From Pseudogemmobacter humi (GTDB lineage Bacteria; Pseudomonadota; Alphaproteobacteria; Rhodobacterales; Rhodobacteraceae), in contig NZ_UXAW01000051.1 in assembly GCF_900609055.1 (NCBI RefSeq), forward strand, positions 124,001-188,000: DNA of 64,000 bases, written 5' to 3'. This document shows, one piece after another, positions 589 to 16,242 of the stretch. Below the pieces are notes generated by a model that worked only from the letters and a program-made list of their open reading frames with translations, did not search any database and was not told the origin of the DNA. Position 1 is the stretch's first letter. The number at the start of each line of letters is the position of its first letter. Position numbers and translations under genes: made by a program.

Positions 589-1698
589 TCAGCTGATCGC
601 TTCGAGGAAAGCGTTCACCGCGGCGTCGCCGTTCTGGCCCCACCAGACCGGATCGTTCAGCACGATCCGCGGCCGGTTTTCCGCCGAGGTGATCGCCCAG
701 GGCGCATCCCCGGGCGTGATCCGCGCGATGGCTTCGGGATTGGTCGGCGTCATGCCAAGGCACGAGAACAGGCCAAGCTGCGCCTCGACCGACTGCGAGA
801 CGGCGATGAATTTCATCACGGCCTCGCGTCCGCCCGGATTGCCTTTGGGCACGATATAGGCTCCGGGCATGGCGATGGCCTGGTTCATCACCATCCTGTA
901 ACGGCCGTTGGTCCTTTCCTCGATGGCGCGGCCGCGGTTCTGCCAGACCATTCCCATCGAGACCTCGCCGTTGACGATCATGTCATGGGCCTCGGAGCCC
1001 GAGCCCCAGTAGATCGTGTTGTCCCTGATCGCGGTGATCCGGGTCAGCGCCCGGTCGATGTCGAGGGGATAGAGCGCCTCGGGCGCCACGCCATCGGCCA
1101 TCAGCGCCGCTTCGAGCGCGCCGTTCGCCCATTTGTAAAGCGAGCGCTGGCCGGGGAATTTCTCCAGATCGAAGAAATCGGCCCAGTCTCGCGGCGGGTT
1201 CTCGCCCCAGGCCTCGGTGTCATACATGAAGGCATAGCCGTAGAGGATGATCGAGACGCCGAATTCCAGCGCATATTCCGGCAGCGTCTTTTCCTTGCTG
1301 ACGACGGAATAGTCGATCGGCTCCAGATGGCCCGAAGCGCCAAGTGCCACCGCGTCGAACAGATCGCCGTCGCAGACATCGGCGGTGACATTGCCGCTGT
1401 CGACCATCTCTTTGATCTTGCCCTGCAAGGGGCCCGACGTGTCGAACCTCAGCGGCATCCCGGTCTCGGCCGTGAAGGGCACACCGATCGCGCTGCCGTG
1501 ACATTCCTCGGACTGGCCGCCCCAGTTCCACAGGATGATCTCGCCCGCCGCCGCCTCTGCGCGCCCGGCCAGCACCGAGGGCAGCGTCACCCCCGCCAGC
1601 CCGCAGATCGCCAGAAAACTCCGTCGCCCCAGCCTGCCCGCCCGGAACGCATGAGCGGCCTCGACGGCGGTTTCGCGCATGAACTGCTTGTCGTGCAT
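589..1698 (-). CDS. Periplasmic substrate-binding protein, PotD/opine family
   Basis: The 369-residue protein has an N-terminal export signal with a twin-arginine motif (GRRSFLA near residue 25), a hydrophobic core and an AEA-type cleavage region, so it is probably Tat-exported. The mature part (IILWNWGGQSEEC onward) matches extracellular solute-binding family 1/8 proteins that bind spermidine, putrescine or opine-like cations. It lies 66 bp after the ATPase gene with a strong AAGGAGGAA ribosome site. Its neighbours are carnitine-type catabolic genes, so a quaternary amine or betaine ligand is more likely than a polyamine. That assignment is inferred from context. Confidence 0.8.
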   Translation of the reverse strand: MHDKQFMRETAVEAAHAFRAGRLGRRSFLAICGLAGVTLPSVLAGRAEAAAGEIILWNWGGQSEECHGSAIGVPFTAETGMPLRFDTSGPLQGKIKEMVDSGNVTADVCDGDLFDAVALGASGHLEPIDYSVVSKEKTLPEYALEFGVSIILYGYAFMYDTEAWGENPPRDWADFFDLEKFPGQRSLYKWANGALEAALMADGVAPEALYPLDIDRALTRITAIRDNTIYWGSGSEAHDMIVNGEVSMGMVWQNRGRAIEERTNGRYRMVMNQAIAMPGAYIVPKGNPGGREAVMKFIAVSQSVEAQLGLFSCLGMTPTNPEAIARITPGDAPWAITSAENRPRIVLNDPVWWGQNGDAAVNAFLEAIS

Positions 1699-1764
1699 CG
1701 TTGTTCCTCCTTGTTGAGGGATGTGACTCCCGTTCGCCGTCAGGCTGACCCTGACTTTCCGTAT

Positions 1765-2772
1765 TCACGACCCCAGCAGGACAGCCGCCTGTTCGGACCA
1801 GTCGAGACCGACCGCCGTTCCCACCGGCAGGGCGCCGCCGCCGCGCCAGGCGTCGACATCCACCTCGATCTGCCCCTGTTCCGCGGTTTCGACCTGGTAT
1901 TTCAGGACCGATCCGAAATAGGCCATCGACAGGATCCGGCCCGAGAGCCGCCCCCCCGTTGCCTGGCCCGTCGCCACCGACAGGTCGATTTTCTCGGGAC
2001 GCAGCGCCCAGACCTTGCCGTCGCGGCGCAGGAAATTGCTTTTCCCCAGGAAGGAGGCCGCGAATTCGGTGCGCGGGCGGCTGTAAAGCTCTTCGGGCGT
2101 TCCCACCTGCTCGACCCGGCCCGCGCGCATGATGACGATGCGGTCCGACATCGACAGCGCCTCTTCCTGGTCGTGGGTCACATAGATGAAGGTGGTGCCG
2201 AGGCGCCGGTGCAGCTCCTTGAGCTGCTCCTGCACCTCGATCCTGAGCTTGCGGTCCAGCGCGCCGAGCGGCTCGTCCAGAAGCAGCACCGGCGGCGAGA
2301 AGGCCAGCGCGCGGGCCAGCGCCACGCGCTGCTGCTGGCCGCCCGAAAGCTGCGCCGGCAGCCGCGCGCCCATGCCCTGCAACTGCGCAAGCTCCAGCAT
2401 CTCGGCCACCCGCGCGGCGATCTCCGCCCGGGGCCGGCCACGGACCGACAGCGCATAGCCGATGTTGTCGGCGACGGTCATATGCGGAAACAGCGCATAG
2501 CCCTGAAAGACCATGCCGAAATTGCGCTTTTCCGGCGGCATCGCGACGATCGAGCGGTCGTCGAGACGGATGTCGCCCGAGGTCGCGTCCTGGAATCCGG
2601 CGATCATCATCAGAAGCGTGGTCTTGCCCGATCCCGAAGGGCCGAGCAGGGTCAGGAACTCGCCGCGGCGGATTTCGAGGTCGATGCCCGCCACCGCCTC
2701 GAACGTGCCGTAATGCTTGACCAGCGCGCGGATCGAAATCCCGCCCGGGCCAGATCCGGTGCCCGCGGCCAT
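1765..2772 (-). CDS. ABC transporter ATP-binding protein, PotA family
   Basis: This 335-residue cytoplasmic ATPase shows a Walker A motif (GPSGSGKTT), a Q-loop (FQGYALFPH), the signature LSGGQQQRVALARAL, Walker B (LLLDEPLGALD) and the H-loop THDQEEAL. The C-terminal third has the TOBE-type extension usual for PotA/UgpC importers. Its start codon overlaps the stop of the BKACE gene (TGATG), so the importer is co-transcribed with the catabolic enzyme. The order ATPase, binding protein, permease is typical of polyamine/opine importers. I infer that it energises uptake of the substrate of this island. Confidence 0.9.
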   Translation of the reverse strand: MAAGTGSGPGGISIRALVKHYGTFEAVAGIDLEIRRGEFLTLLGPSGSGKTTLLMMIAGFQDATSGDIRLDDRSIVAMPPEKRNFGMVFQGYALFPHMTVADNIGYALSVRGRPRAEIAARVAEMLELAQLQGMGARLPAQLSGGQQQRVALARALAFSPPVLLLDEPLGALDRKLRIEVQEQLKELHRRLGTTFIYVTHDQEEALSMSDRIVIMRAGRVEQVGTPEELYSRPRTEFAASFLGKSNFLRRDGKVWALRPEKIDLSVATGQATGGRLSGRILSMAYFGSVLKYQVETAEQGQIEVDVDAWRGGGALPVGTAVGLDWSEQAAVLLGS

Positions 2773-3662
2773 CAGGCGTCGGCCCCGCGCAGATGCAGCC
2801 TGTTGCGCGCCTCTTGCGGCGAAAGCACCCGCGCGCCCATCCGCTCGATGATCTCGCGCGCCTGTTCCACCAGTTGCGCATTGGTTGCCAGGACCCCGCG
2901 GCCGAGGAACAGGTTGTCCTCAAGCCCCACCCGCACGTTTCCGCCAAGCGCGACGGCGGCGGCGGCCATCGGCATCTGCATCCGGCTGATGCCGAAACCG
3001 GCCCAGCTTGCCCCGGGCGGAAGCTGCGCCTTCATCGCCGCCATGGTCTCGACCGTCTGATCCGCGCCCCAGGGAATGCCGAGGCAAAGCTGGAACATCG
3101 GCGGATCGGCCAAGAGCCCCTCGGCCAGCATCGCTTTGGCAAAGCGGATATGGCCGAGGTCGAACACCTCCAGTTCGGGCTTCACGCCCCATTCCCGCAC
3201 CAGCGCCGCCATCCGCCGCAGGATGGGCGGCGTCGAGATATAGATCGTGTCGTCATTGCCGAAGTTCAGCGTGCCGCAATCGAGCGAGCAGATCTCGGGC
3301 AGGCAGTCCCTGACATGGGCCAGCCGCTCGTCCGGCCCGATCATGTCGGTGCCCGGCCCGGGCATCGCCCAGTCGTCCTTCGCGGGCGTCCAGTCGCCGC
3401 CCATCCCGGCCGTCAGATTGATGACCACATCCACCCCCGACTGGCGCACCCGGTCCACCGTTTCGCGAAACAGCGCGGGATCGCGTGAGCCCTTGCCCGT
3501 CTGCGGATCGCGCACATGCAGATGCACCACCGAGGCGCCGGCGCGGGCCGCCTCGACCGCATCGCGGGCGATCTCTTCGGGCGTCACGGGAACATGTTTC
3601 GATCTGCCCGTCGTATCGCCCGCGCCGGTCACGGCGCAGGTCAGAACCACCTCGAAGTTCAT
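2772..3662 (-). CDS. BKACE family (DUF849) beta-keto acid cleavage enzyme
   Basis: The 296-residue protein matches the BKACE family, Zn-dependent TIM-barrel enzymes that condense a beta-keto acid with acetyl-CoA to give acetoacetate and a new acyl-CoA. Visible motifs are VVHLHVRDP (zinc ligands H47 and H49) and [11 protein letters not shown] near the C-terminus, which carries the family's Glu ligand. In pseudomonad carnitine catabolism the family member CdhC cleaves 3-dehydrocarnitine. A CdhR-like regulator next door and a carnitine dehydrogenase homologue nearby suggest the same reaction here. The start at 3662 has a good AGGAGAGG site. Substrate assignment is contextual. Confidence 0.85.
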
Positions 3663-3743: not shown

Positions 3744-4946
3744 ATGTCGAAAATTCTCACCACTTCACTTTCCTTGTCCGGCGCGGCCTCGCAGCGGCGC
3801 ATCGCCGGTTCGGACGGGCCTTTCCGGGTCTCGTTCCTGATCGTTCCGCGGTTCAATCTGGCCGAGATGGTAAGCATGATCGAACCGATGCGGGTGGCGA
3901 ATTATCTCTCGCCCCGCCCGCTTTACGAATGGGAGATTCTGTCCTTCGACGGGCCGGAAATCACCGCCTCCAACGGGCTGTCGATCACCGCGAACCGGCC
4001 GGGAGAGCGCAGCCGCCGCGATGAGATCATCTTCATCTTCGCCAGCTGGGGCGCCGAAACCTACGAGAACCGCGAGGCGACAAGCTGGATCCGCCGCCAG
4101 GCGCGCGAGGGCGCGCGGATCTGCGCGGTGGAACTGGGCTGCTACCTCGTCGCCCGCGCCGGGCTGCTGAAGGGGCGCAAGGTCGCGACCCACTGGTCCT
4201 GTGCGCCCGGCTTTCAGGAACGCTTCCCCGAGACCCATATGGTTGATCAGATCTACACCCCGGGCGATCACGTCATGACCTGCGCCGGAGGCTTTGCCGG
4301 GGTGGACATGATGCTGCGGCTGATCACCGATCAGCATGGCGAAGGGCTGGCAAGCGAGGTGGCCGATCAGTTGCTTTACCATCCGGTGCGGCCGCCGACC
4401 GCGCCGCAGCGGCGGATGATGGGGCACGGGCTGGAAAATCTGGCCCCCGTGGTGCGAGATGCGATCACGCTGATGGAGAACCACATCGAGGAACCGCTGA
4501 ACGTGCCGCAGATCGCCGAAGAGATGGGGGTGTCGCAGCGCCAGCTTGAGCGGCAGTTCAAGGCCTCGGTCGGCTGCACCGTGGTGCAGTTCGGGCTGCT
4601 TTTGCGGCTGCAACACGCGCGCGTTCTGCTGGTGGCGACCGGGCTGCCGGTGCGCGATATCGCTGCGGCGGCGGGGTTCAACACGCTGTCGCATTTCGCC
4701 CATGCCTTCCGCAAATGCTTTGGCCGGCGCCCGTCGGACTACCGGCAGGCCTGGCCCAAGGAAGACGCCGCCCCGACCTGGCCGGGCACGCTGACGAAAT
4801 ATCTGGAAACGCTGGAAACGCGAACCGCCGCCCGTTCGGTGAAGGGCGGCGGCGGGCGGGGCATGGCGGCGGCTATTGCCGCGCCGCCCGGATCGCATTC
4901 AGAACCGCAACGATCTCGCGGTCGCGCTGCGCCGCCATATCGGTGA
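3744..4946 (+). CDS. GlxA/CdhR-like transcriptional regulator (GATase1 domain plus AraC HTH)
   Basis: The 400-residue protein has an N-terminal class I glutamine amidotransferase-like domain (about residues 30-200, including VELGCYLVARAGLL with the nucleophile-elbow Cys). A C-terminal AraC-type double helix-turn-helix follows (about 245-340, ending RRPSDYR). The segment FLIVPRFNLAEMVSMIEPMR resembles CdhR, the carnitine-responsive activator. It is divergent from the BKACE operon and faces the carnitine dehydrogenase homologue, so it probably activates both on sensing a betaine. The last 25 codons are low-complexity Gly/Ala/Arg and overlap the 3' end of the convergent dehydrogenase gene by 74 bp. 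Confidence 0.85.
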   Translation: MSKILTTSLSLSGAASQRRIAGSDGPFRVSFLIVPRFNLAEMVSMIEPMRVANYLSPRPLYEWEILSFDGPEITASNGLSITANRPGERSRRDEIIFIFASWGAETYENREATSWIRRQAREGARICAVELGCYLVARAGLLKGRKVATHWSCAPGFQERFPETHMVDQIYTPGDHVMTCAGGFAGVDMMLRLITDQHGEGLASEVADQLLYHPVRPPTAPQRRMMGHGLENLAPVVRDAITLMENHIEEPLNVPQIAEEMGVSQRQLERQFKASVGCTVVQFGLLLRLQHARVLLVATGLPVRDIAAAAGFNTLSHFAHAFRKCFGRRPSDYRQAWPKEDAAPTWPGTLTKYLETLETRTAARSVKGGGGRGMAAAIAAPPGSHSEPQRSRGRAAPPYR

Positions 4947-5817
4947 AATGCCGCCCCGCCGCAATGGCGTTGCAGCCTTCGACCATGCGGTCGCGCAGCT
5001 CCTGCGTCAGTTCCGGCGCCTCCAGCCGGGTCCAGGGCCATTTCAGCGCCGGGCCGAACTGATCGAGATTGGTGGCCATCCCTCCCTCGCCGCAGGCGAC
5101 GTGGAACGCCATGCACTGGCCCTGCGCCGCCATCCGCGGCGCCGGGCCGTTCATCAGCGCGATGTCTATGTCGTCCGGCGTCGCCTCGCCATTGGCGACC
5201 ATATGCAGCGCCTCGCGCCAGAGCGCCTCCTGCAGGCGGGTGGCGACGAAGCCGGGGATCTCTTTCTTCAGCACCAGCGGCACCTTGCCCGCCACGCGGT
5301 AGAAGGCGGCGGCCCAGTCCACCGCAGCCTTTTCGGTGCCCTTGCCGCCGACCACCTCGACCAGCGGCAGCAGATAGGGCGGGTTGAACGGATGGCCGAT
5401 CACCGTGCGCTGCGGGGTCATGCAGTCGCGCTGGATCTGCGACATGGTCAGCCCCGAGGTGGACGAGGCGATCACGCAGGCCCGGGGCGCCAGCTGGCAC
5501 AGCCTGGCGTAAAGCGCCTGCTTGATCTCCAGCCGCTCGGGGGCGCTTTCCTGGATGAACTGCGCCTCGCGCACCGCCGCCGCCAGGTCGGTCGTGACCG
5601 TCAGCCGGCCGCGCGAGGCGCCGGGCGCAAGGCCGAGTGCCGTCAGGCTGATCCAGGCGGTGTCGATCACGGCGTTCAGCGCGTCGCGCTCGCTGTCGTC
5701 ATGGATCCAGGCGGTCACGTCATAGCCGCGCGCCAGGAAATGCGCGGCCCAGCCTCCGCCGATCGGGCCGGCGCCGAGGGTGGTGACGCGGGTGACGCTT
5801 TCGGGTTCGGGATACAT
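4873..5817 (-). CDS. L-carnitine dehydrogenase-like 3-hydroxyacyl-CoA dehydrogenase family protein
   Basis: The 314-residue NAD-dependent dehydrogenase has an N-terminal Rossmann motif (GAGPIGGGWA), the family segments QESAPERLEIK and HPFNPPYLLPLVEVVGG, and a C-terminal helical domain with FGPALKWPWTRLEAPELT. These closely resemble pseudomonad CdhA, which oxidises L-carnitine to 3-dehydrocarnitine. The product would feed the BKACE enzyme encoded nearby. It lacks the fused hotdog thioesterase domain found in some rhizobial LcdH proteins. Its start lies 1 nt after the stop of the CaiD-like gene, so the two are translationally linked. Confidence 0.8.
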   Translation of the reverse strand: MYPEPESVTRVTTLGAGPIGGGWAAHFLARGYDVTAWIHDDSERDALNAVIDTAWISLTALGLAPGASRGRLTVTTDLAAAVREAQFIQESAPERLEIKQALYARLCQLAPRACVIASSTSGLTMSQIQRDCMTPQRTVIGHPFNPPYLLPLVEVVGGKGTEKAAVDWAAAFYRVAGKVPLVLKKEIPGFVATRLQEALWREALHMVANGEATPDDIDIALMNGPAPRMAAQGQCMAFHVACGEGGMATNLDQFGPALKWPWTRLEAPELTQELRDRMVEGCNAIAAGRHFTDMAAQRDREIVAVLNAIRAARQ

Positions 5818-5818
5818 C

Positions 5819-6616
5819 TCAGCGCCCCCTGAAGTCGGGCTGACGTTTCGCGACGAAGGCCGCCACGCCCTCGCGCGCGTCGTCCGAGGACAGCATGGCG
5901 CGATAGACGGGCAGATCGCCGCTGCGCATCGCGGCGAAGGCGCGTTCCAGCGGCAGGCCCTGGATCGCGCGCTCGACCTCTTTCACGCTCTGCATCGCAA
6001 GCGGCGCCGCGGCCGCGATCCGGTCCGCCCAGTCCCGCGCCACATCCATCAGATCCGCTTGCGGGACCACGCGGTTCACCAGCCCGTAATGCGCCGCCTC
6101 GGCCGCGCCCATCCGCCGGCCCATGAGGAACATCTCGGTGGCGATGTTGCGCGGGATCAGCCGCGGCAGACGTTGCAGCGCGCCCGCATCGGGCACGATC
6201 CCCAGGGGCATTTCCGGCAGGCCGAATTCCACATGATCGGCCGCCAGGATCAGATCGCAGGACATCGCGATCTCGAAACCGCCGCCGATGGCCAGGCCGT
6301 TCAGCGCGCAGATCACCGGCTTGTTCAGCCGCCAGTTCTCGGTCAGGCCGGCGAAGCCGCCCTCGCCGTAATCCTCTTCCCACCAGTTGGTCAGGGCCAT
6401 GTCGCCCTGGTTCAGAGCCTTGAGATCCCAGCCGGCCGAGAAGATCCGCTCCCCCGCGCCGGTCAGGATCGCGCAGCGCAGCTCCGGGTCGTCACGCAGG
6501 AGCGCGAAGGCGCGGCCCATGTCCTGGCTCATCGCCCGGTCGATGGCATTTACCTTCGGGCGGTTGAGCGTCACTTCCAGAACCCGGCCGCGCCGGGCGA
6601 CTTCAACGAAAGACAT
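5819..6616 (-). CDS. caiD: CaiD-like enoyl-CoA hydratase (crotonobetainyl-CoA hydratase)
   Basis: The 265-residue crotonase-fold protein shares long stretches with E. coli CaiD as I remember it: FSAGWDLKA, GGFAGLTE, LPEMPLGIVPDAG, GRRMGAAEA, VNRVVPQADLMD and the ending KRQPDFRGR. CaiD hydrates crotonobetainyl-CoA to L-carnitinyl-CoA in the cytoplasm. That would let the cell funnel crotonobetaine or gamma-butyrobetaine into carnitine for the adjacent dehydrogenase. I chose the ATG at 6616 because an AGTGAGG site sits just upstream; a GTG at 6628 overlapping the previous stop is the alternative. It lies downstream of the LLM gene in one operon. Confidence 0.8.
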   Translation of the reverse strand: MSFVEVARRGRVLEVTLNRPKVNAIDRAMSQDMGRAFALLRDDPELRCAILTGAGERIFSAGWDLKALNQGDMALTNWWEEDYGEGGFAGLTENWRLNKPVICALNGLAIGGGFEIAMSCDLILAADHVEFGLPEMPLGIVPDAGALQRLPRLIPRNIATEMFLMGRRMGAAEAAHYGLVNRVVPQADLMDVARDWADRIAAAAPLAMQSVKEVERAIQGLPLERAFAAMRSGDLPVYRAMLSSDDAREGVAAFVAKRQPDFRGR

Positions 6617-6624
6617 CGGCGGCC

Positions 6625-7659
6625 TCACTTAAATGCGGGGATGACATGTTTGCAGAACAGCTCAAGCGAGCGTTTCTGTTCGGCAAGGCCGTAGCCCATC
6701 GAGGCGTAATAGATGAAGGCATCCACCCCGAGCGCCTGGTAGGGTTTCAGCTTGGCGATCACCTCGTCGGGGGTGCCGAACATCAGATTGGCCGACAGCA
6801 TCTGCGGATCGTATTCCGCCCGGTTCGCCACCGATTCGAGCGGGATCTCGCGCGGGAAGCCGTCGGTCACGTCGCCGAGGTTCTTGAACAGGTTCTCGAA
6901 CTGCGAGAGCTGCCGCTGCGCCGCCCGCACCGGCGCCATCCATTCGTCCTTGCGGTCGTAAACGGCGGTGTGGCGCATCATCGCCATGGTGGGGCGCTTC
7001 TTGCCCGGATGGGCCGCCAGCGCGTCCTCCAGCCGCTGCACATAGGTCTGCGCCTCGTCCATGCCGCGCGTCAGCGGCCAGGACATGATGTTGCAGCCTT
7101 CGCGCACCGCATAATCATAGGTGACGGGCGCCCGTGCGGCGACCCAGACCGGCACCTCGGGCTGGAGGGGCTTCGGGCAGGAGGTCGAGGTGGGAAACGA
7201 CCAGAACTGCCCGTCATGCGCGTGATCGCCTTTCCACAGCGCCCGGACGACCGGCAGCATCTCCTGCATGTATTGCCAGCCCTCGGACTGTTTCAGGCCC
7301 GGGGCCATCCGGTCGAATTCGCGCTGATAGGCGCCCGAGCCGATGCCGAACTCCAGCCGTCCGCCCGAGATCAGATCGAGGAAGGCCGCCTCGCCCGCCA
7401 CTTTGACCGGATGCCAGTAGGGCGCCACCACGCAGGCGGTTCCCAGCCGGATCGTCGAGGTATGTTCCGCCCACCAGGTCAGGATCTGGAACGGGTTGGG
7501 CGCGATGGTCATTTCCAGCGCATGATGTTCCGCCGCCCAGGCGATCGAAAATCCGCCCTCTTCGGCCATCTGCACCATCTCAAGGGTATGGCGGGCCACC
7601 TCGCGCATGTCGAGCGATGGGTCCATCCGCTCCAGGTTGATTGCCAGCTGGAACTTCAT
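6625..7659 (-). CDS. LLM-class flavin-dependent monooxygenase
   Basis: The 344-residue protein has a bacterial luciferase-like TIM barrel: MKFQLAINLERMDP, EEGGFSIAWAAEHHALE, RLGTACVVAPYWHPV, RLEFGIGSGAYQREFDRMG-like text and a C-terminal GTPDEVIAKLKPY. Such enzymes use reduced FMN made by a separate flavin reductase and O2 to cleave or oxygenate N- or S-containing substrates; RutA and TgnA are examples. A candidate reductase is the fused domain encoded at about 11820-12325. The ATG at 7659 is preceded by GGGAGAG. The gene heads a minus-strand operon with caiD and the carnitine dehydrogenase homologue, separated from the aldehyde dehydrogenase by a terminator. Confidence 0.85.
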   Translation of the reverse strand: MKFQLAINLERMDPSLDMREVARHTLEMVQMAEEGGFSIAWAAEHHALEMTIAPNPFQILTWWAEHTSTIRLGTACVVAPYWHPVKVAGEAAFLDLISGGRLEFGIGSGAYQREFDRMAPGLKQSEGWQYMQEMLPVVRALWKGDHAHDGQFWSFPTSTSCPKPLQPEVPVWVAARAPVTYDYAVREGCNIMSWPLTRGMDEAQTYVQRLEDALAAHPGKKRPTMAMMRHTAVYDRKDEWMAPVRAAQRQLSQFENLFKNLGDVTDGFPREIPLESVANRAEYDPQMLSANLMFGTPDEVIAKLKPYQALGVDAFIYYASMGYGLAEQKRSLELFCKHVIPAFK

Positions 7660-7840: not shown

Positions 7841-9322
7841 TCAGCGCATGACGAAGGGATTGGCCATAGGTTCGGTGGAGGTATTGACCCAGACGGTTTT
7901 GGGCCGCGTGTAATCCCACATCGCCTGAAAGCCGCTTTCGCGCCCATAGCCCGAGGCCTTGACCCCGCCGAAGGCCGCGATGGGCGAGACGGCGCGATAG
8001 GTGTTCACCCAGACGATCCCCGCCCGCACCGCCCGCGCCATCCGCATCTGGCGCGCGCCGTCGCGGGTGAAGATCCCGGCGGCAAGGCCATGCGCGCTGG
8101 CATTGGCGAGGGCGAGCGCCTCGGCCTCGGTGCGGAACCGCAGGACCGACAGAACCGGGCCGAACAATTCCGTATCGACGATGGTCAGATCCGGGCGCGG
8201 GCAGTCGATGATCGTCGGCTGGTAATAGGTGCCGCCCAGCCCCGGCGGCTGGTCTCCGCCGGTCAGCAGCCGCCCGCCCTCCTTCTGCGCCAGCGCCACC
8301 TGTCGGCGGATATGCGCAAGCTGGCCCGGGGTGCAAAGCGGCCCCATCTGGGTTTCTTCCGCCAGCGGATCGCCGATGCGGATCGAACGGGCCAGCGCCA
8401 CCATCCGCTCCAGGAAGGCATCGGCGATGCTCTCGTGCAGCAAAAGCCGCGAGCCCGCGACGCAGCTCTGCCCGGTCGCGCCGAAGATCCCGGCGACCGA
8501 ACCGTTCACCGCGCTGTCCAGATCAGCATCGTCAAAGACGATGAAGGGGGATTTGCCGCCCAGTTCCAGCGACACTTCGGCGAAATTGTCGGAGGAATTG
8601 TGCACGATATGCCGCGCGGCCACCGGCCCGCCGGTGAAAGAGATACGCGAAACCAGCGGATGGCTGGTCAGCACCCGCCCGCAGGGGTCGCTGTGGCCGG
8701 TGACGATATTGACCACGCCGGGCGGAAAACCCGCCTCGGCGATCAGCCTGCCGAAATCCAGCATCGCCACCGACGCATGTTCCGACGCCTTCAGCACCAC
8801 CGTATTCCCGGCAGCCAGCGCCGGGCCGATCTTCACCGCCACCAGGAAAAGCTGCGAGTTCCACGGCACGATGGCCGCCACCACGCCCAGAGGCTCGCGC
8901 TGAGTGAAGACAAAGAGGTCGGGCTTGTCGATCGGCAGCGTCTCGCCCGCGATCTTGTCGGCGGCGCCGGCGTAGAAATGGAAGAAATCGGCGATATATC
9001 GGGCCTGCCAGCGGGTTTCCTTCAGCAGCTTGCCGGTGTCGATGGTTTCGGAGCGGCCCAGGTCCTCGGATCGCTCTGCCAGCAGATCGGCCAGCCGTCT
9101 GAGGCACCGGCCGCGATCAGAGGGCGTCATCGCCGCCCATGGCCCCGAGGAAAACGCCCGGTCGGCGGCGCGTACGGCGCGGTCCACATCTTCCGCCGTG
9201 GCCTCGGGGATGCGTGCCCAGACCCGCCCGGTGACCGGCGACACGCTGTCGAAGGTTCCGCCGTCCGAAGCATCGGTCCAGTCGCCGTCGATCAGCATCT
9301 GGCAGTTGCGTATGTCGTTCAT
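7841..9322 (-). CDS. NAD(P)-dependent aldehyde dehydrogenase
   Basis: The 493-residue protein is a complete class-3-fold aldehyde dehydrogenase with the oxyanion Asn (VPWNSQ, N155), general-base Glu (ELGGKSP, E253) and nucleophile Cys (GATGQSCVAGSR, C287). The ATG at 9322 has an AGGGAGAA ribosome site; an upstream in-frame start is less likely. It is divergent from the RidA-led operon and has its own terminator. In a trigonelline-like route it would oxidise the semialdehyde made by the flavin monooxygenase. In a carnitine context, trimethylaminobutyraldehyde or betaine aldehyde are alternatives. The motif set alone does not decide between them. Confidence 0.85.
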   Translation of the reverse strand: MNDIRNCQMLIDGDWTDASDGGTFDSVSPVTGRVWARIPEATAEDVDRAVRAADRAFSSGPWAAMTPSDRGRCLRRLADLLAERSEDLGRSETIDTGKLLKETRWQARYIADFFHFYAGAADKIAGETLPIDKPDLFVFTQREPLGVVAAIVPWNSQLFLVAVKIGPALAAGNTVVLKASEHASVAMLDFGRLIAEAGFPPGVVNIVTGHSDPCGRVLTSHPLVSRISFTGGPVAARHIVHNSSDNFAEVSLELGGKSPFIVFDDADLDSAVNGSVAGIFGATGQSCVAGSRLLLHESIADAFLERMVALARSIRIGDPLAEETQMGPLCTPGQLAHIRRQVALAQKEGGRLLTGGDQPPGLGGTYYQPTIIDCPRPDLTIVDTELFGPVLSVLRFRTEAEALALANASAHGLAAGIFTRDGARQMRMARAVRAGIVWVNTYRAVSPIAAFGGVKASGYGRESGFQAMWDYTRPKTVWVNTSTEPMANPFVMR

Positions 9323-9379
9323 GGCTTTCTCCCTGCTGGCCGCCCATTCTTGAACGGACAAAGCGGCGTGGCATGCGAC

Positions 9380-9402
9380 TTTTCGCCATCGACCGGCGAA
9401 AA
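9380..9402. promoter_or_regulatory. Inverted repeat in the divergent promoter, candidate operator
   Basis: TTTTCGCC at 9380-9387 and GGCGAAAA at 9395-9402 form a perfect 8-bp inverted repeat with a 7-nt spacer. It lies between the divergent aldehyde dehydrogenase and RidA genes, where an operator controlling both would be expected. No regulator gene is adjacent, so the binding protein is unknown. Confidence 0.4.
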
Positions 9403-9465
9403 AACGGAACCCGCAGCGCCCTGCCGGTGCAACCGTCTGCCTGTCACCGGACAGGGAGGCTTGGC

Positions 9466-9861
9466 GTGGCGAAACAGGTGATTGGGGATCCGCTGGTGAT
9501 CGACGGCCGCAGGCTGTCGCTGTCGCGGGCGGTGCGGGCCGGAGAGACGGTCTATCTGACCGGCCAGGTGCCGATGCAGGGCGGCCGGGTCATGACCTGG
9601 GGCAGCATCGAGGACCAGACCGCCGCCGTGCTGGAGGCGATCACCGCCACCCTGGCCCTGGCCGGTTGCGGGCGCGAGGATGTGGTCAAGACCATGGTCT
9701 GGCTGAAGGACCGCGCCGATTTCCCCGGGTTCAATGCGGTGTACGGCGACTATTTCCCCAAGGCGCCGCCCGCGCGCTCGGCCCTGGTCAGCGACTTTCT
9801 GGTCGATGTGCGGATCGAGATCGAAGTGATCGCCTGGAAGCCCGAGGAGACCGGCCGATGA
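9466..9861 (+). CDS. RidA family protein (YjgF/YER057c/UK114)
   Basis: Starting at GTG 9466, which has a GGGAGG site upstream, the protein has 131 residues, the usual RidA length. It ends with the conserved substrate-pocket stretch PPARSALVSDFLVDVRIEIE. RidA proteins hydrolyse reactive enamines or imines; RutC is the homologue in pyrimidine ring-opening catabolism. It leads a tightly overlapping plus-strand operon (RidA, alpha/beta hydrolase, CaiB-flavin reductase fusion, AA_synth protein). I infer that it detoxifies or processes an aminoacrylate- or enamine-like intermediate made by the LLM monooxygenase. Confidence 0.85.
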   Translation: MAKQVIGDPLVIDGRRLSLSRAVRAGETVYLTGQVPMQGGRVMTWGSIEDQTAAVLEAITATLALAGCGREDVVKTMVWLKDRADFPGFNAVYGDYFPKAPPARSALVSDFLVDVRIEIEVIAWKPEETGR

Positions 9862-10643
9862 CCCGCACACCCGACGGAACCAGCTACAGCCTGAGCGGCC
9901 CCGAGGGCGCCCCCGTATTGGTGCTGATCCACGGGCTGGGGCTGACCCGGCAGATCTGGCAGGATCTGCTGCCGCAGCTTGCCGCCCGGTTCCGGGTGAT
10001 CGCCTATGATCTGTCCGGCCATGGCGACTCGGCCCCGCCCCCGGCGAAACCTGTGCTGCGCGATCTGTCGGAACAGCTTGCCCGCCTGCTGGATCATCTC
10101 GGCATCGGGCGCGCCGCTCTTGCGGGGTTTTCGCTGGGCGGCATGGTGGCGCGGCGCTTTGCCCAGGATCATCCGTCCCGGGTCACGGCGCTGGCGATCC
10201 TGCATTCGCCGCACCGCCGCACGCCCGAGGCCCAGGCCGCGATCCTCGCCCGGGTCGCCCAGGCCGAACGCGGCGGCCCCGCCGATACGGTCGAGGCCGC
10301 GCTGCGGCGCTGGTTCACCGATGCCGCGCCGCCCGCGCTGGCCGCGCAGGTGCGCCGTCAGGTGCTGGCGAACGATCCGGCGCTTTATCCCGGTCTCTAC
10401 CGCATCCTGGCCGAGGGCATCGACGAGATCGTGGCGCCGCAGCCCCCCATCGCCTGCCCTGCGCTGGTGCTGACCGCCGATCAGGATCACGGCAACGGCC
10501 CGGAAATGTCCGCCGCCATCGCCGCCGAGATCCCCGGCGCGCGCCTCGTGATCCTGCCCGGATTGCGCCATATGGCGCTGGCCGAACGCCCCGCGGCGGT
10601 AAGCGGACCGCTTCTCGACTTTCTCGCTGGGGTGCCGGCATGA
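9858..10643 (+). CDS. Alpha/beta hydrolase, RutD / enol-lactonase-like
   Basis: The 261-residue single-domain hydrolase has an oxyanion loop (VLIHGLGLTRQIW), nucleophile elbow GFSLGG, acid LTADQDHG and catalytic His in GLRHMALAE. This layout is typical of 3-oxoadipate enol-lactonases and RutD. The start ATG overlaps the RidA stop (ATGA), and its own stop overlaps the next start in the same way. It probably hydrolyses an amide, lactone or carbamate produced after ring or C-N bond cleavage. The exact substrate cannot be read from the sequence. Confidence 0.8.
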   Translation: MTRTPDGTSYSLSGPEGAPVLVLIHGLGLTRQIWQDLLPQLAARFRVIAYDLSGHGDSAPPPAKPVLRDLSEQLARLLDHLGIGRAALAGFSLGGMVARRFAQDHPSRVTALAILHSPHRRTPEAQAAILARVAQAERGGPADTVEAALRRWFTDAAPPALAAQVRRQVLANDPALYPGLYRILAEGIDEIVAPQPPIACPALVLTADQDHGNGPEMSAAIAAEIPGARLVILPGLRHMALAERPAAVSGPLLDFLAGVPA

Positions 10644-12325
10644 GCGGGGGCATCCTTTCGGGCCTGCGGGTTCTGGATCTCAGCCGGATGCTGTCGGGGC
10701 CCTATGCCACGATGATGCTGGCCGATCACGGCGCCGAGGTGATCAAGATCGAGGACGCCGGCGGCGACACCAGCCGCAAGAACGGCCCCTTCCGCGAGGA
10801 CGACCCCGATCAGGACTGGGCGGGCTATTTCGTCAGCCTCAACCGCTCCAAGAAAAGCGTGCGGCTGGATCTGAAATCCGAGGCCGGGAAAGCCGCGCTG
10901 CGCGGGATGGTGCGCTCGGCCGATGTCCTGATCGAGAATTTCCGCCCCGGGGTGATGGAGCGCCTTGGCCTGTCCTATGAAAGCCTCAGCACGATCAACC
11001 CCCGTCTGGTCTATGCCGCGATCCGCGGCTTCGGCGATCCGCGCAGCGGGGCGAGCCCCTATGCCGGCTGGCCGGCCTATGATGTGGTGGCCCAGGCCAT
11101 GGGCGGGCTGATCTCGGTCACCGGCGCCGATGGCGCGCATCCCACGAAGGTTGGGCCGGGCATCGGCGATGTCTTTGCCGGGATGATCGCGGCGTTCGGC
11201 ATTCTGGCGGCGCTGCGCAGCGCCGAGGCAACCGGGCGGGGCCAGTTCCTCGATGTCGCCATGTATGATGCGATGCTCAGCCTTTGCGAGCGGCTGGTCT
11301 ATCAGCACGACTTTGAAGGCATCGTCCCCGTGCCCGAGGGCAACGGCCATCCGCTGCTGGCGCCCTTCGGGCTGTATCCGGCGCGCGACGGAATGGTGGC
11401 GATCGGCGTGGTCGACGACGCCTTCTGGCAAAGCCTCGCCCGGGCGATGGACCGGCCCGGTCTGGCGTTTGATCCGGCCCATGCCACCCGCGCGGCCCGG
11501 CGCGCCAATGCGGGTGCGATCAATGCGATGGTCTCGGCCTGGACCGCCGGGCTGACCCGGGACGAGCTTGCGCAAAAGCTGGGCGGGCTGATCCCCTTCG
11601 GTCCGGTGAACGACATCGCGGCGATCTTCGCCGATCCGCATGTGGCGGCGCGCGGCATGATCGCGACCATCGCCCACCCCGAGCCCGGCAAACGGCCCTG
11701 GCGGGTCGCGGCCAATCCGCTGCGCTTCGCGGATGCGCCCGCGCCCGGGCCCCGCCCGCCGCCGCGCCTTGGCGAGCATCAGGCGCTGGCGGCGGCGGCC
11801 GGGCCGCCCCAGCCTCTGGCGCCTCAGGCCCTGCGCCGCGCCTTCGGTGCCTTTGCGACCGGCGTGACCGTGCTGACCACCCGCCAGGCCGACGGCACGC
11901 CGCGGGGCTTCACCGCGAACAGCTTCGCCTCGGTCTCGCTCGATCCGCCGCTGGTGATGATCTGCCTCGCCAAAAGCGCGCATTCCTGCGCGACCTTTGC
12001 CGCCGCGCCGCATTTCGCCGTCAATGTCCTGGCAGAAGGGCAAGAGCCCGTCGCAGAGCTTTTCGCCTCGCGGGCGCCCGACAAGTTCCCGCGCTGCGAC
12101 TGGCGGCCCGGCCATGCCGGGATGCCGCTGATCGACGGCGCGCTGGCCGGGTTCGTCTGCGCCCGTCACCGGCTGGTCGATGCGGGCGACCATCTGATCC
12201 TGATCGGCCGGGTCGAAGCCTTCTCGGAAACCGCGGGCAATCCGCTGGGGTTCTTTCGTGGCGCTTACGTCCCGGTCGGCCCCCTGAACACGAACAAGAC
12301 CGGAGAGAACCATGTCCCTGCCTGA
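10640..12325 (+). CDS. Fusion protein: class III (CaiB/BaiF) CoA-transferase plus flavin reductase
   Basis: The 561-residue reading frame joins two unrelated enzymes without a stop. Residues 1 to about 375 are a family III CoA-transferase (GLRVLDLSRMLSGPYATMML, LIENFRPGVMERLGLSYE, catalytic Asp177 in VGPGIGDVFAGM). A Pro/Ala-rich linker spans about 370-395. From about 396 to 555 the chain is a flavin reductase-like split-barrel domain (LRRAFGAFATGVTVLTT, GFTANSFASVSLDPPLVM). The reductase domain could supply FMNH2 to the LLM enzyme encoded nearby, and the transferase could activate the acid product or a betaine with CoA. Start and stop overlap the neighbouring genes. I know of no standard family with this architecture. 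Confidence 0.85.
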   Translation: MSGGILSGLRVLDLSRMLSGPYATMMLADHGAEVIKIEDAGGDTSRKNGPFREDDPDQDWAGYFVSLNRSKKSVRLDLKSEAGKAALRGMVRSADVLIENFRPGVMERLGLSYESLSTINPRLVYAAIRGFGDPRSGASPYAGWPAYDVVAQAMGGLISVTGADGAHPTKVGPGIGDVFAGMIAAFGILAALRSAEATGRGQFLDVAMYDAMLSLCERLVYQHDFEGIVPVPEGNGHPLLAPFGLYPARDGMVAIGVVDDAFWQSLARAMDRPGLAFDPAHATRAARRANAGAINAMVSAWTAGLTRDELAQKLGGLIPFGPVNDIAAIFADPHVAARGMIATIAHPEPGKRPWRVAANPLRFADAPAPGPRPPPRLGEHQALAAAAGPPQPLAPQALRRAFGAFATGVTVLTTRQADGTPRGFTANSFASVSLDPPLVMICLAKSAHSCATFAAAPHFAVNVLAEGQEPVAELFASRAPDKFPRCDWRPGHAGMPLIDGALAGFVCARHRLVDAGDHLILIGRVEAFSETAGNPLGFFRGAYVPVGPLNTNKTGENHVPA

Positions 12326-12977: not shown

Positions 12978-14039
12978 TCAGGCGGTGGCCCGTTCCCCCG
13001 CCTGATCCACCAGCAGGTCGGTGATCCCCGCGCCGATCCACATGCACAGAAGCGCAAGCCAGGCGGTGGCGACGAAGATCGACCCGCCGGTCACGCCCGC
13101 GCCGATGGCGCAGCCTCCGGCCAGCATGGCGCCGAAGCCCATCAGCGCCGCGCCCAGCATCGAGCGGCGCATCTGCCCCTCGCCCTCGAATCCCTGGAAG
13201 CGCAGCCGCCGTTTCAGCGTGGCCGAGACGAAGGCTCCGGCGAAGACCCCCGGCACCAGCCCGATGTTGAAATCCAGCACCGGATTTGCCGTCAGGAAGA
13301 ACATCAGCGTATCGGCGGAAGGCCCCGAGAAGGTGGCCGAGGTCACGCTGACCGGATCGAACGCCTGCTGCGCCAGCGAGAAGGTCAGCACCCAGCCAAG
13401 CGCCACCGCGAATCCCACGCCCGAGGCGAAAACCAGCGTCGCCGCGCCGATCCCGTTGCGCCGCGCCAGCCACAGCGCCAGCGCGGCGAAGCCGAGGCCG
13501 GTGACGATTCCGCTGGCATCGGGCAGCGACAGCGCGGAGAGCAGGCTCAGATTCCGCCCGCCCGGAGTGGTCCATAACCCCGCCAGCGTCTCGCGCGCGG
13601 GCGACAGCCAGCCGTGCAGTGCCATCTGCGCCACCACGGCGAAGATCAGCCCCGACACCAGCGAGCGCAGGTTCCCCGTCGCGGCCAGCACCAGCAGCCG
13701 CCCGGAACAGCCGCGGGCCAGCACCATCCCCGCGCCGAACATCAGCCCGCCGGCCACCGCGCCCGACCAGCTGCCGGTCACCGCCATCATCCTCGCCTCG
13801 TCCGCCCGGAACAGGCCGGTCATTTGCGCCCCCTGCACCCAGATCATCGCGGTGGAAAAGGTCAGCAGCCAGACCGAGACCTTCGGCCCCAGACTGCCGC
13901 GGGCGAATTCCACCGTCGCCGCGCGCAGGCAGAAGGACGAGCGTTCCGCCGCGAAGCCGAACACGGCGCCGACCAGCAAACCGAAAAGGGCCGCCAGGGC
14001 AGGTTCCGAAAAGCGGTCGAGAAGAAAGGTCAGGTCCAT
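12978..14039 (-). CDS. YeeE/YedE family thiosulfate/sulfur transporter
   Basis: The 353-residue inner-membrane protein has about nine to ten hydrophobic segments. It carries the three Cys-containing motifs used by the thiosulfate transporter TsuA: SSFCLRA (C37), ARGCSGR (C111) and AGGCAIGAG (C310). These cysteines relay thiosulfate or a related sulfur ion through the channel. The ATG at 14039 has a GGAGGAA site. No partner tusA/sirA-like gene is next to it. It is separated by 271 bp from the upstream P-type ATPase gene and is convergent with the DUF1185 gene, so it appears unrelated to island A. Confidence 0.85.
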   Translation of the reverse strand: MDLTFLLDRFSEPALAALFGLLVGAVFGFAAERSSFCLRAATVEFARGSLGPKVSVWLLTFSTAMIWVQGAQMTGLFRADEARMMAVTGSWSGAVAGGLMFGAGMVLARGCSGRLLVLAATGNLRSLVSGLIFAVVAQMALHGWLSPARETLAGLWTTPGGRNLSLLSALSLPDASGIVTGLGFAALALWLARRNGIGAATLVFASGVGFAVALGWVLTFSLAQQAFDPVSVTSATFSGPSADTLMFFLTANPVLDFNIGLVPGVFAGAFVSATLKRRLRFQGFEGEGQMRRSMLGAALMGFGAMLAGGCAIGAGVTGGSIFVATAWLALLCMWIGAGITDLLVDQAGERATA

Positions 14040-14310
14040 CGTGTTCCTCCGCCCGTATAAACACCCGAGGGATCCGCCGGCGCCTTGATTTGAGTCAGGT
14101 CCCGCGGCCCGGTGCACGGATGCCCGCGGCGGCTCCGCCAGGGGGCAGTTCCATCATGAAGCCTTTCGGTGCGCGCCGAAAAGCCCGGTGGCCCGAATAT
14201 GCCTTTCGCCCGGAACAGCGCCTCGCCAGGCGCGGCGCATTCCTCGGCGGTGGGGGGGCGGTCCTGCCCGCGCTTTGGCCCTGGCCTGCCTGGGCGGGCA
14301 TCGCCCATAT

Positions 14311-16242
14311 TCAGCGGCCGGCTCCGGTTCTGTCGCTTCGTATCGGATCGGCGAGCAGCCTGAGCCCGTTCAGCACGACCAGCAGCGTGCCCCCTTCATG
14401 TCCCAGCACCGCCAGCGGCAACGGCAGGGCGATCAGCAGCGTCGAGATCACCAGCAGGACCATCATTCCGATGGCAAAGGCCAGATTCTGGCGGATCACC
14501 CGGCGCGTGCGTCGCGCCAGCCGATGCGCCGCGGCCAGACGGCCCATGTCGTCCGACAGCAGCGCCACGTCGGCGGCCTGGAGCGCCACCTCGCTGCCCG
14601 CCGCCCCCATGGCGATGCCGACATCTGCCCGGGCCAGCGCCGCCGCATCGTTCACCCCGTCGCCGACGAAGGCCACCCGGCCCCGCCCGGCCAGTTCGCC
14701 CACCAGCCGCACCTTGTCTTCGGGCAGCAGATCCGCGTGAACGTCCTGCGGGGCGATGCCCAGTTCCGCGCCGATCCGCAGACCCACGGCACGGTGGTCT
14801 CCGGTCATCATGGTGATCGTGCCGACCCCTTCCGCCCGCAAGGCGGCCAGCCCGGCGGCCGAGGTCGCGCGCGGGCGGTCGGCCAGGCTCACCGCGCCGA
14901 GCACCCGGTCGCCGCGCCCCAGCCACACCACCGTCTGTGCCGTCCCGGCCAGCGCGGCGAATTCCGGCTGCCGGAGACCGGCCCCCATCCGCCTCGCCAT
15001 ACGGGGGTTGCCGGCCCAGACCGGGCCTGTCGAATCCCGGCCGATAATCCCTTCGCTGGGGACGGTCTCGACATCATGAACCTGCGCGCGCCCGACGCCC
15101 CGGCTTTCGGCATGGCGGCGGATCGCATCGGCGATCGGATGTTCCGACTGCGCCTCAAGTCCCGCGATCAGCGACAGGAACGCATCCTCGCCTTCCGGCG
15201 CGATCACCTGTGTCACCCCGGCCTTGCCGGTGGTCAGGGTGCCGGTCTTGTCAAAGGCGAAGATCCCGGCGTCCGCCAGCGTTTCCAGAGCCGCGCCGCC
15301 CTTGAACAGCACGCCGCCACGCGCCGCCGCCGCCAGTGCCGACAGGATCGCCGCGGGAACCGAGATCACGATGGCGCAAGGGCTGGCGGCGACCAGCAGC
15401 GTCGCCGCGCGATAAAGCGCGTCCCGCATCGGCCAGCCCAGCCAGAGGAACACCGCGAGGGCCAGTGCCGAACCGGCCAGAACCGCCACCGTATACCGCT
15501 GGCCGAACCAGGCGCTGAACCGTTCCGAGGGTGCGCGCGCCGCCTGCGCCTCGGTCACGAGCGCGATCATCCGCGCCACCGTGCTGTCGGCGACCGAACG
15601 GTCGATCCTGACCGCCAGCACGGCGTTGAGGTTCACGGTCGCCTCGAAGACCCTGGCGCCGGGATGCTTGCCCACCGGCATCGATTCGCCGGTGATCGTC
15701 GCCTCGTCCAGCGCGCCCTCGCCCTCGGTCACCACGCCGTCGGCGGGCACCCGCGCCCCGGGGCGCAGCACCACGACATCGCCGGGGGCAAGATCTGCGG
15801 CCGCCACCTCCGTCACCCTGCCGTCGGCGCCGCGCCGCAGCGCGGTATCGGGCCGCAGCGCCATCAGCGCCGCGACCGCGCGCCGCGCCCGTGCCATGGC
15901 ACGATGTTCCAGGGTGGTCGAAAGACTGAAGAGCGTCAGCAGCACCGCCCCCTCAAGGGCGGCGCCGACCGCGGCGGCGGCAAGGGCGGCAATGATCATC
16001 AGCAGGTCGATGTCGGGGCGCCGTTCGTGCCAGAGCACCGCGAGCGCGCGCCGCGCCGTCGGCAGGCCGCCGGCAAGACAGACCAGCACAAGGCCGAACG
16101 CCCCCCAGGGGCCGGAGACCAGCAAGGCGTCAAAGGCTGCAAGCGCCATGCCCGCCAGCGTCACGCCGGTCAGCACCGTCATCAGGCGGTCGGCGGAAAG
16201 ATCGAAAGACAATGTCATATCCTGGCTGTGCCGCGGCATCAC
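14311..16242 (-). CDS. Heavy-metal P1B-type ATPase (Zn/Cd/Co type)
   Basis: The 643-residue ATPase has the transmembrane metal-binding motif SPC (VAASPCAIVISVP), the phosphorylation motif DKTGT, the TGES actuator loop (TITGESMP), the HP motif (SEHPIADAI), GDGVNDA in the hinge, and a final membrane segment with NGLRLL. There is no N-terminal HMA or His-rich metal-binding domain, so the protein is short for the family. SPC with this ending suggests export of Zn, Cd or Co rather than Cu. Starts at 16242 or 16218 are both possible, with weak ribosome sites. No metal-responsive regulator is adjacent. Confidence 0.85.
   Translation of the reverse strand: MMPRHSQDMTLSFDLSADRLMTVLTGVTLAGMALAAFDALLVSGPWGAFGLVLVCLAGGLPTARRALAVLWHERRPDIDLLMIIAALAAAAVGAALEGAVLLTLFSLSTTLEHRAMARARRAVAALMALRPDTALRRGADGRVTEVAAADLAPGDVVVLRPGARVPADGVVTEGEGALDEATITGESMPVGKHPGARVFEATVNLNAVLAVRIDRSVADSTVARMIALVTEAQAARAPSERFSAWFGQRYTVAVLAGSALALAVFLWLGWPMRDALYRAATLLVAASPCAIVISVPAAILSALAAAARGGVLFKGGAALETLADAGIFAFDKTGTLTTGKAGVTQVIAPEGEDAFLSLIAGLEAQSEHPIADAIRRHAESRGVGRAQVHDVETVPSEGIIGRDSTGPVWAGNPRMARRMGAGLRQPEFAALAGTAQTVVWLGRGDRVLGAVSLADRPRATSAAGLAALRAEGVGTITMMTGDHRAVGLRIGAELGIAPQDVHADLLPEDKVRLVGELAGRGRVAFVGDGVNDAAALARADVGIAMGAAGSEVALQAADVALLSDDMGRLAAAHRLARRTRRVIRQNLAFAIGMMVLLVISTLLIALPLPLAVLGHEGGTLLVVLNGLRLLADPIRSDRTGAGR

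Follow-up and report, generated by a model that had tools for sequence, protein, structure and literature searches.

TgnA and TgnB are reportedly the two components of a flavin-dependent oxygenase which cleaves the C5-C6 bond of N-methylnicotinate. PMC8269262 describes the pair as opening the ring and argues against homarine as a likely substrate. Both trigonelline and homarine belong to the N-methylated pyridiniums present in plankton, and the genes for their catabolism therefore matter for the flow of carbon and nitrogen in the sea. An operon for homarine catabolism (Ferrer-Gonzalez et al. 2026) is cited in PMC13390433. In the annotated trigonelline (tgn) operon (NZ_CP094644.1, locus L163; L, G and C numbers are our designations of loci, genomes and contigs) the order of the genes is GntR regulator, AA_synth, alpha/beta hydrolase, tgnA, tgnB and tgnC, the reductase being a free gene. 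The present analysis concerns a gene of Pseudogemmobacter humi in which a class III CoA-transferase and a TgnA-type flavin reductase share one reading frame (10640-12325, forward strand, of a stretch of 64,000 nucleotides, positions 124,001 to 188,000 of contig NZ_UXAW01000051.1, here called the window). Judged from its sequence, the protein is a new arrangement of known domains in a tgn-like pathway; our reading, to which we assign a probability of about 0.7, is that two enzymes of one catabolic pathway are carried on one chain, the fusion being a device of co-expression.

The frame translates into 561 residues uninterrupted by any stop. The N-terminal domain matches the CoA_transf_3 profile from end to end (PF02515, profile positions 1-366 of 366, E 2.2e-127, 425.6 bits against a cut-off of 23.3), a full-length domain shared with class III CoA-transferases including succinyl-CoA:mesaconate CoA-transferase; the latter is the best NCBIfam model, at 413.5 bits, under its equivalog cut-off of 700. 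The C-terminal domain matches Flavin_Reduct (PF01613, profile positions 2-152 of 153, E 5.7e-39, 134.1 bits against a cut-off of 27), and a linker rich in proline and alanine lies around residues 383-400. Asp177, which we take to be the catalytic residue of class III CoA-transferases, is identical in 25 of 25 aligned fusions, the window counted. The translation, Pfam and this conservation bear out what the original prediction had read from the letters, namely a single frame with a complete transferase, a linker and a complete reductase. At its 5' end the gene shares the bases ATGA (10640-10643) with the stop of the hydrolase gene, and at its 3' end it runs past position 12312, where the AA_synth gene begins; both overlaps place the fusion in a tight operon. 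An internal start from which a separate reductase could be made was considered and rejected: the 32 residues preceding the reductase contain no in-frame ATG or GTG in the window, and in those relatives that have an ATG at the junction no ribosome-binding site was seen before it by eye.

The same joining is found in relatives. A scan of genome contigs, of which the best 80 of 88 relatives were used, gave 37 loci (L022-L058) in which the match runs across the transferase into the reductase, in most as far as residue 547; one further fusion lies on a plasmid of Parasedimentitalea marina (L021). In all of these 38 loci, selected by their matching the fusion, the two domains stand in a single frame with no intervening stop. 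A stop at the junction in close relatives, which had been named beforehand as the observation that would speak against a fusion, was thus looked for and found in none of them, so that a lost stop or a frameshift is not the explanation. In a family sample of 394 genomes, 14 match at E <= 1e-140 (the own genome included) in 16 places, 15 of which span both domains without a stop. That two genes were joined here by a sequencing error or by the loss of a stop, for which nothing was found, is refuted by these relatives to the point of having next to no likelihood.

The fused loci carry in their record titles the names of Ruegeria, Shimia, Sulfitobacter, Planktomarina and others. In a class-wide sample of 385 genomes the own genome alone matches at E 1e-140, and of 13 genomes of the genus, again the own one alone has the transferase domain at 1e-110. 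In 43 more distant loci of the contig scan (L059-L101) the transferase is matched and no reductase match was found at 1e-8 in the available DNA; free relatives of the transferase reach 58% identity over the whole domain. In one genome (G317) the fusion gene occurs twice (L144 on C16 and L178 on C49), and one of the copies lacks the third domain described below. The original statement that no such protein has been described stands for the literature searches aimed at the fusion architecture, which found none among the titles and abstract beginnings listed; it does not hold for public records, where such proteins are present, one annotated relative being named simply 'CoA transferase'.

The relationship of the cluster to the tgn operon emerged from the reductase. 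The reductase and third domain of L022 matched 378 plasmid records, and in 314 the match covered 80% or more of the query; among the 60 matches listed, one, nearly full length, is annotated as tgnA, reductase component of trigonelline monooxygenase. The window and the tgn operon share five gene families, with identities to the tgn proteins of PK01 of 51% for the flavin reductase, 38% for the luciferase-like monooxygenase (LLM), 56% for the aldehyde dehydrogenase (ALDH), 59% for AA_synth and 33% for the hydrolase. A closer copy is carried by the own genome on contig C28 (G000, L132:8557-17195), in the order AA_synth, hydrolase, free reductase (320 residues), LLM and ALDH, followed by ATP-binding cassette (ABC) transporter genes; its LLM and ALDH are 70% and 71% identical to TgnB and TgnC of PK01, and the ABC binding protein and ATPase of the window (589-2772) are related to those beside it, at 35% and 51% identity. 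The homology to the annotated tgn proteins, together with the closer copy in the same genome, makes the window cluster a tgn paralogue. Trigonelline as a substrate by orthology was rejected, the window reaching 38% and 56% against TgnB and TgnC and the other copy 70% and 71%. Beyond the tgn operon, the window adds RidA, the CoA-transferase, a CaiD-like hydratase, a dehydrogenase resembling carnitine dehydrogenase, a beta-keto acid cleavage enzyme (BKACE) and a regulator resembling GbdR, and its reductase, unlike that of the tgn operon, is fused and has no Nudix-like domain.

In the proposed explanation, the C-terminal half would act as a TgnA-type NAD(P)H:flavin reductase, supplying reduced flavin to the separate LLM at 6625-7659, which, by analogy with the trigonelline system, probably opens an N-methylated pyridinium-type ring; the N-terminal half would, via Asp177, convert an intermediate with a carboxylic acid group into its CoA thioester, on which the CaiD-like hydratase would act. 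The fusion would most likely have arisen once in this bacterial family, by the joining of a transferase gene to the downstream reductase-Nudix gene of one operon, and would provide co-expression in a fixed ratio, not substrate channelling. Neighbours were counted among 39 loci including the window, a gene being scored as present if it matched at 1e-8 at any place in the locus, and loci whose flanks were too short being left out of the count concerned: LLM occurs in 35 of 36, ALDH in 36 of 37, the hydrolase in 37 of 38, RidA in 35 of 38, AA_synth in 33 of 38, the enoyl-CoA hydratase (ECH) in 34 of 36, the 3-hydroxyacyl-CoA dehydrogenase family protein (HAD) in 31 of 33, the regulator in 30 of 33 and BKACE in 29 of 33. 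Given these counts and the homology to TgnA and TgnB, the earlier proposal that the reductase serves the LLM is very probably right, and the pairing is well supported by homology, the transferase belonging to the same cluster; the companion proposal, CoA activation for the hydratase, is plausible. The substrate is possibly an N-methylated pyridinium. Exceptions to the conserved neighbourhood are L030, where the fusion gene has no cluster gene in its 21.6 kb, L033 (no HAD or ECH), L048 and L049 (no RidA, AA_synth, BKACE or regulator), L028 and L041 (no AA_synth) and L032 (no BKACE).

The history of the two halves was followed in trees, which leave out duplicates, partial sequences and long ones. 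Among 79 reductases, all 50 with an in-frame transferase fall in one clade of 54 (support 100/99), the other side holding 24 free reductases and one hydrolase fusion; when the annotated TgnA and three plasmid sequences were added, all four joined the free side (Shimodaira-Hasegawa-like approximate likelihood ratio test, SH-aLRT, 90, quick search). The transferases of the fused type, 28 in number, likewise group together in a single clade (quick search, SH-aLRT 100). Close to the position at which free reductases begin, an in-frame ATG is still present in 16 of 39 fusions, not preceded by any ribosome-binding site recognisable by eye, which suggests that the frame was formed from two adjacent genes; this ATG is absent from the window. 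The arrangement has also been undone. In two genomes (G177, loci L106 and L125; G090, loci L108 and L126) no transferase was found in the cluster, and an alpha/beta hydrolase stands in frame with the reductase and third domain (579 and 585 residues); in G275 (L139) the transferase is shortened to 197 of 381 positions, most of its C-terminal half being gone and the motif around Asp177 broken, although an Asp aligns there, while reductase and third domain look intact; in G260 (L138) and G314 (L143) a free reductase lies inside the fused clade; in the Planktomarina loci L051 and L052 the transferase is kept, with 11 and 16 of 51 conserved reductase positions changed; and in G208 (L175) a transferase from inside the fused clade is present, while a search of 6.5 kb at 1e-3 gave no match to the reductase. 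From these trees and loci, the fusion looks like a single event that was later undone. A hydrolase-reductase fusion occurs on the tgn side as well, in L162 and in Mesorhizobium L165 (7158-8945, one coding sequence of 1788 bases); the latter is annotated as an alpha/beta fold hydrolase.

These losses bear on the stronger idea, put forward in the original prediction under Rosetta-stone logic, that flavin-dependent cleavage and CoA activation are directly linked: the transferase would be brought by the reductase to the ring-cleaving monooxygenase, so that a reactive product is captured at once as its CoA ester. The retention of the fusion in 38 loci and in 15 of the 16 places of the family sample, nearly always with LLM and ALDH, speaks for such a coupling. 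The separate swapping and loss of the halves (the hydrolase partner in two genomes with no transferase in the cluster, the transferase remnant beside an intact reductase, the reductase decayed or not found beside a transferase) argues against an obligatory coupling; moreover the reductase is free in the tgn operon, whose order leads one to expect an aldehyde dehydrogenase step between the two activities. This part of the prediction is not supported, and we regard the coupling as decidedly improbable. The joining seems to reflect convenience in the order of the genes, not new chemistry; it offers a clean case of a well-kept gene fusion with no implied chemical coupling, whose parts were swapped and lost separately.

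Most relatives carry a third domain. Of the 38 relative fusions, 32 are 692-707 residues long, 131-146 more than the window protein; the shorter ones (544-570 residues) are L049, L051, L052, L055 and L058, and L026 is cut by the end of its contig. In the additional C-terminal part, 147-164 residues counted from the chosen cut point, Pfam recognised no domain in any of the four sequences submitted. An AlphaFold prediction from 22 third-domain sequences reached a predicted local distance difference test (pLDDT) score of 84.2, and a Foldseek search with this model returned Nudix hydrolases (3cng, E 4.2e-9) and 3rh7 (template modelling score, TM, up to 0.70, 29% identity); the third domain is therefore predicted to fold like a Nudix domain. 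The entry 3rh7, SMa0793 of Sinorhizobium meliloti (a putative oxidoreductase), matches the reductase and third domain of L022 jointly (residues 2-298 of that part, E 1e-66), and provides a solved example of the reductase plus Nudix-like architecture of the long relatives; it has no CoA-transferase, and the window has no third domain, the AA_synth gene following directly upon the reductase. The window thus differs from TgnA of PK01, which has the C-terminal Nudix-like domain, at 23% identity. Among the best NCBIfam matches is also the reductase of p-hydroxyphenylacetate 3-hydroxylase (NF045919), with an N-terminal reductase and a similar model length (309); the match is restricted to the reductase part of the fusion. 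The third domain is also lost in L055, L058, L177 (G362) and L178 (G317); in L049 its sequence resumes in another frame after the stop, as seen in L176 (G359:C144), which has the same reductase sequence, and this case, which looks like a frameshift, real or due to sequencing error, is not counted as a clean loss. In the proposed history, the Nudix-like domain was lost later, in the lineage of the window. The C-terminal domain of the p-hydroxyphenylacetate 3-hydroxylase reductase is different in kind from this Nudix-like domain.

The loss raises the question of whether the window reductase is itself a degenerating passenger, reduced flavin being supplied by other reductases of the genome, which has eight PF01613 matches, that of the window included. 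Several observations are in keeping with this: the ratio of reductase to transferase nonsynonymous divergence (dN) is 1.20-1.64 in five pairs with the window, while six other pairs of its subclade give 0.63-0.91; the branch of the window measures 0.82 and 0.92 in the reductase trees against 0.15 in the transferase tree; and L051 and L052, also devoid of the third domain, are those with 11 and 16 conserved positions lost. The pairs with L034 in a second subclade give dN ratios of 0.86 and 1.03 with the third domain and of 1.28, 2.09 and 2.27 without it. On the other side, 50 of the 51 conserved residues are intact in the window reductase, with no stop or frameshift, and on a wider measure its reductase/transferase ratio is an ordinary 1.18, within the 0.96-1.35 of 36 three-domain fusions. 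L055 deviates at 2 and L058 at 7 of the 51 positions, and sequences with a third domain at 0.8 on average and at most 5. Taken together, sequences without the third domain have a faster reductase than those with it (7 versus 36, non-independent, one-sided p 0.01), a difference driven by Planktomarina and not pressed here. A mere passenger is rather unlikely; the window reductase is probably functional, perhaps less constrained.

Several points weigh against the reading of the fusion as a co-expression device for two enzymes of one pathway. Within its subclade, the window reductase changes faster than its transferase, which could mean loss of function. Since one fused locus (L028) is titled Hyphomicrobiales, the restriction to one family is uncertain. 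The reductase trees are midpoint-rooted, the tree with TgnA and the transferase tree are quick searches, and several sequences of the former, the window among them, carry a flag for length. With a mean pLDDT of 61.4, the AlphaFold prediction for the complete window protein is too poor to show contacts between its domains. The LLM, at 38% identity, may catalyse a reaction different from that of TgnB, and the names TgnA and TgnB rest on a public annotation and on the reported biochemistry. Finally, the sequences establish the fusion, its conservation, its single clade, its homology to an annotated tgn operon and the separate losses of the parts; each activity, the proposed service to the monooxygenase, the class of substrate and co-expression in a fixed ratio in place of channelling are inferred.

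The coordinates of the fusion and of the surrounding genes are collected in Table 1.

Table 1. Fusion gene, its parts and its neighbours in the window.
Feature	Position	Strand	Basis and remarks
CoA-transferase / flavin reductase fusion gene, 561 residues	10640..12325	+	Translation, Pfam, relatives
Class III CoA-transferase domain, residues 6-381	10655..11782	+	Pfam; Asp177 codon 11168-11170
Pro/Ala-rich linker, residues 382-402	11783..11845	+	In-frame ATG in 16/39 fusions, not in the window
TgnA-type flavin reductase domain, residues 403-546	11846..12277	+	Pfam; 50/51 conserved positions intact
Short tail; Nudix-like third domain of most relatives absent here	12278..12325	+	Comparison with relatives
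AA_synth (DUF1185) family gene, 201 residues	12312..12917	+	PF06684, E 3.2e-66; 59% to PK01 tgn-operon protein
Alpha/beta hydrolase; frame open from 9666, start 9858 inferred from homology onset	9858..10643	+	Pfam, relatives
RidA family protein; start uncertain, conserved part from about residue 34	9373..9861	+	PF01042, E 1.7e-24
ALDH, TgnC-like	7841..9361	-	56% to PK01 TgnC
LLM, TgnB-like; start 7659 inferred	6625..7659	-	38% to PK01 TgnB
ECH	5819..6628	-	Best NCBIfam crotonobetainyl-CoA hydratase, under cut-off
HAD	4873..5817	-	Best NCBIfam L-carnitine dehydrogenase, under cut-off
AraC-type regulator	3744..4946	+	Best NCBIfam GbdR, under cut-off
BKACE	2772..3662	-	PF05853, E 5.8e-101
ABC transporter ATP-binding protein	1765..2772	-	51% to counterpart beside own-genome tgn-like operon
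ABC transporter substrate-binding protein	589..1698	-	35% to counterpart beside own-genome tgn-like operon

Carnitine was rejected as a substrate by orthology, HAD and ECH remaining under the carnitine equivalog cut-offs of NCBIfam (HAD 301.4 bits, cut-off 414; ECH 314.4 bits, cut-off 500). As to the transferase, two annotated free relatives adjoin genes of MmgE/PrpD, MaoC, acyl-CoA dehydrogenase and CoA-ester lyase or aldolase/citrate lyase, and, unlike the window fusion, have no flavin reductases among their neighbours; these neighbourhoods, together with the best NCBIfam model, make a small unsaturated dicarboxylate or an analogue a likely acceptor. A fuller scheme, which we put forward tentatively and at less than even odds, would be a form of trigonelline-type ring cleavage, as yet undescribed, that depends on CoA, occurs in several roseobacter genera and is directed at another N-methylated pyridinium: the ring-opened product, oxidised by the ALDH, would be converted by the transferase into its CoA ester and enter an arm that resembles carnitine catabolism and consists of hydratase, dehydrogenase and BKACE, with the transferase on one chain with the reductase that serves the ring-opening oxygenase. 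The cluster suggests that marine Rhodobacteraceae and Roseobacteraceae possess a second pathway of ring cleavage, similar to tgn, one that is easily overlooked, because the fused gene can carry the annotation 'CoA transferase' alone.

Variations of the cluster include a Rieske oxygenase gene between LLM and ALDH in L043 (6085-7191) and L126 (5775-6926), for which the nearest NCBIfam model is the glycine betaine monooxygenase GbcA, far under its cut-off; L041 and L057 have gaps of more than 1 kb at this position. Downstream of the cluster, the window carries on the reverse strand (12978-16242) a Sulf_transp family gene and an E1-E2 ATPase, probably unrelated.

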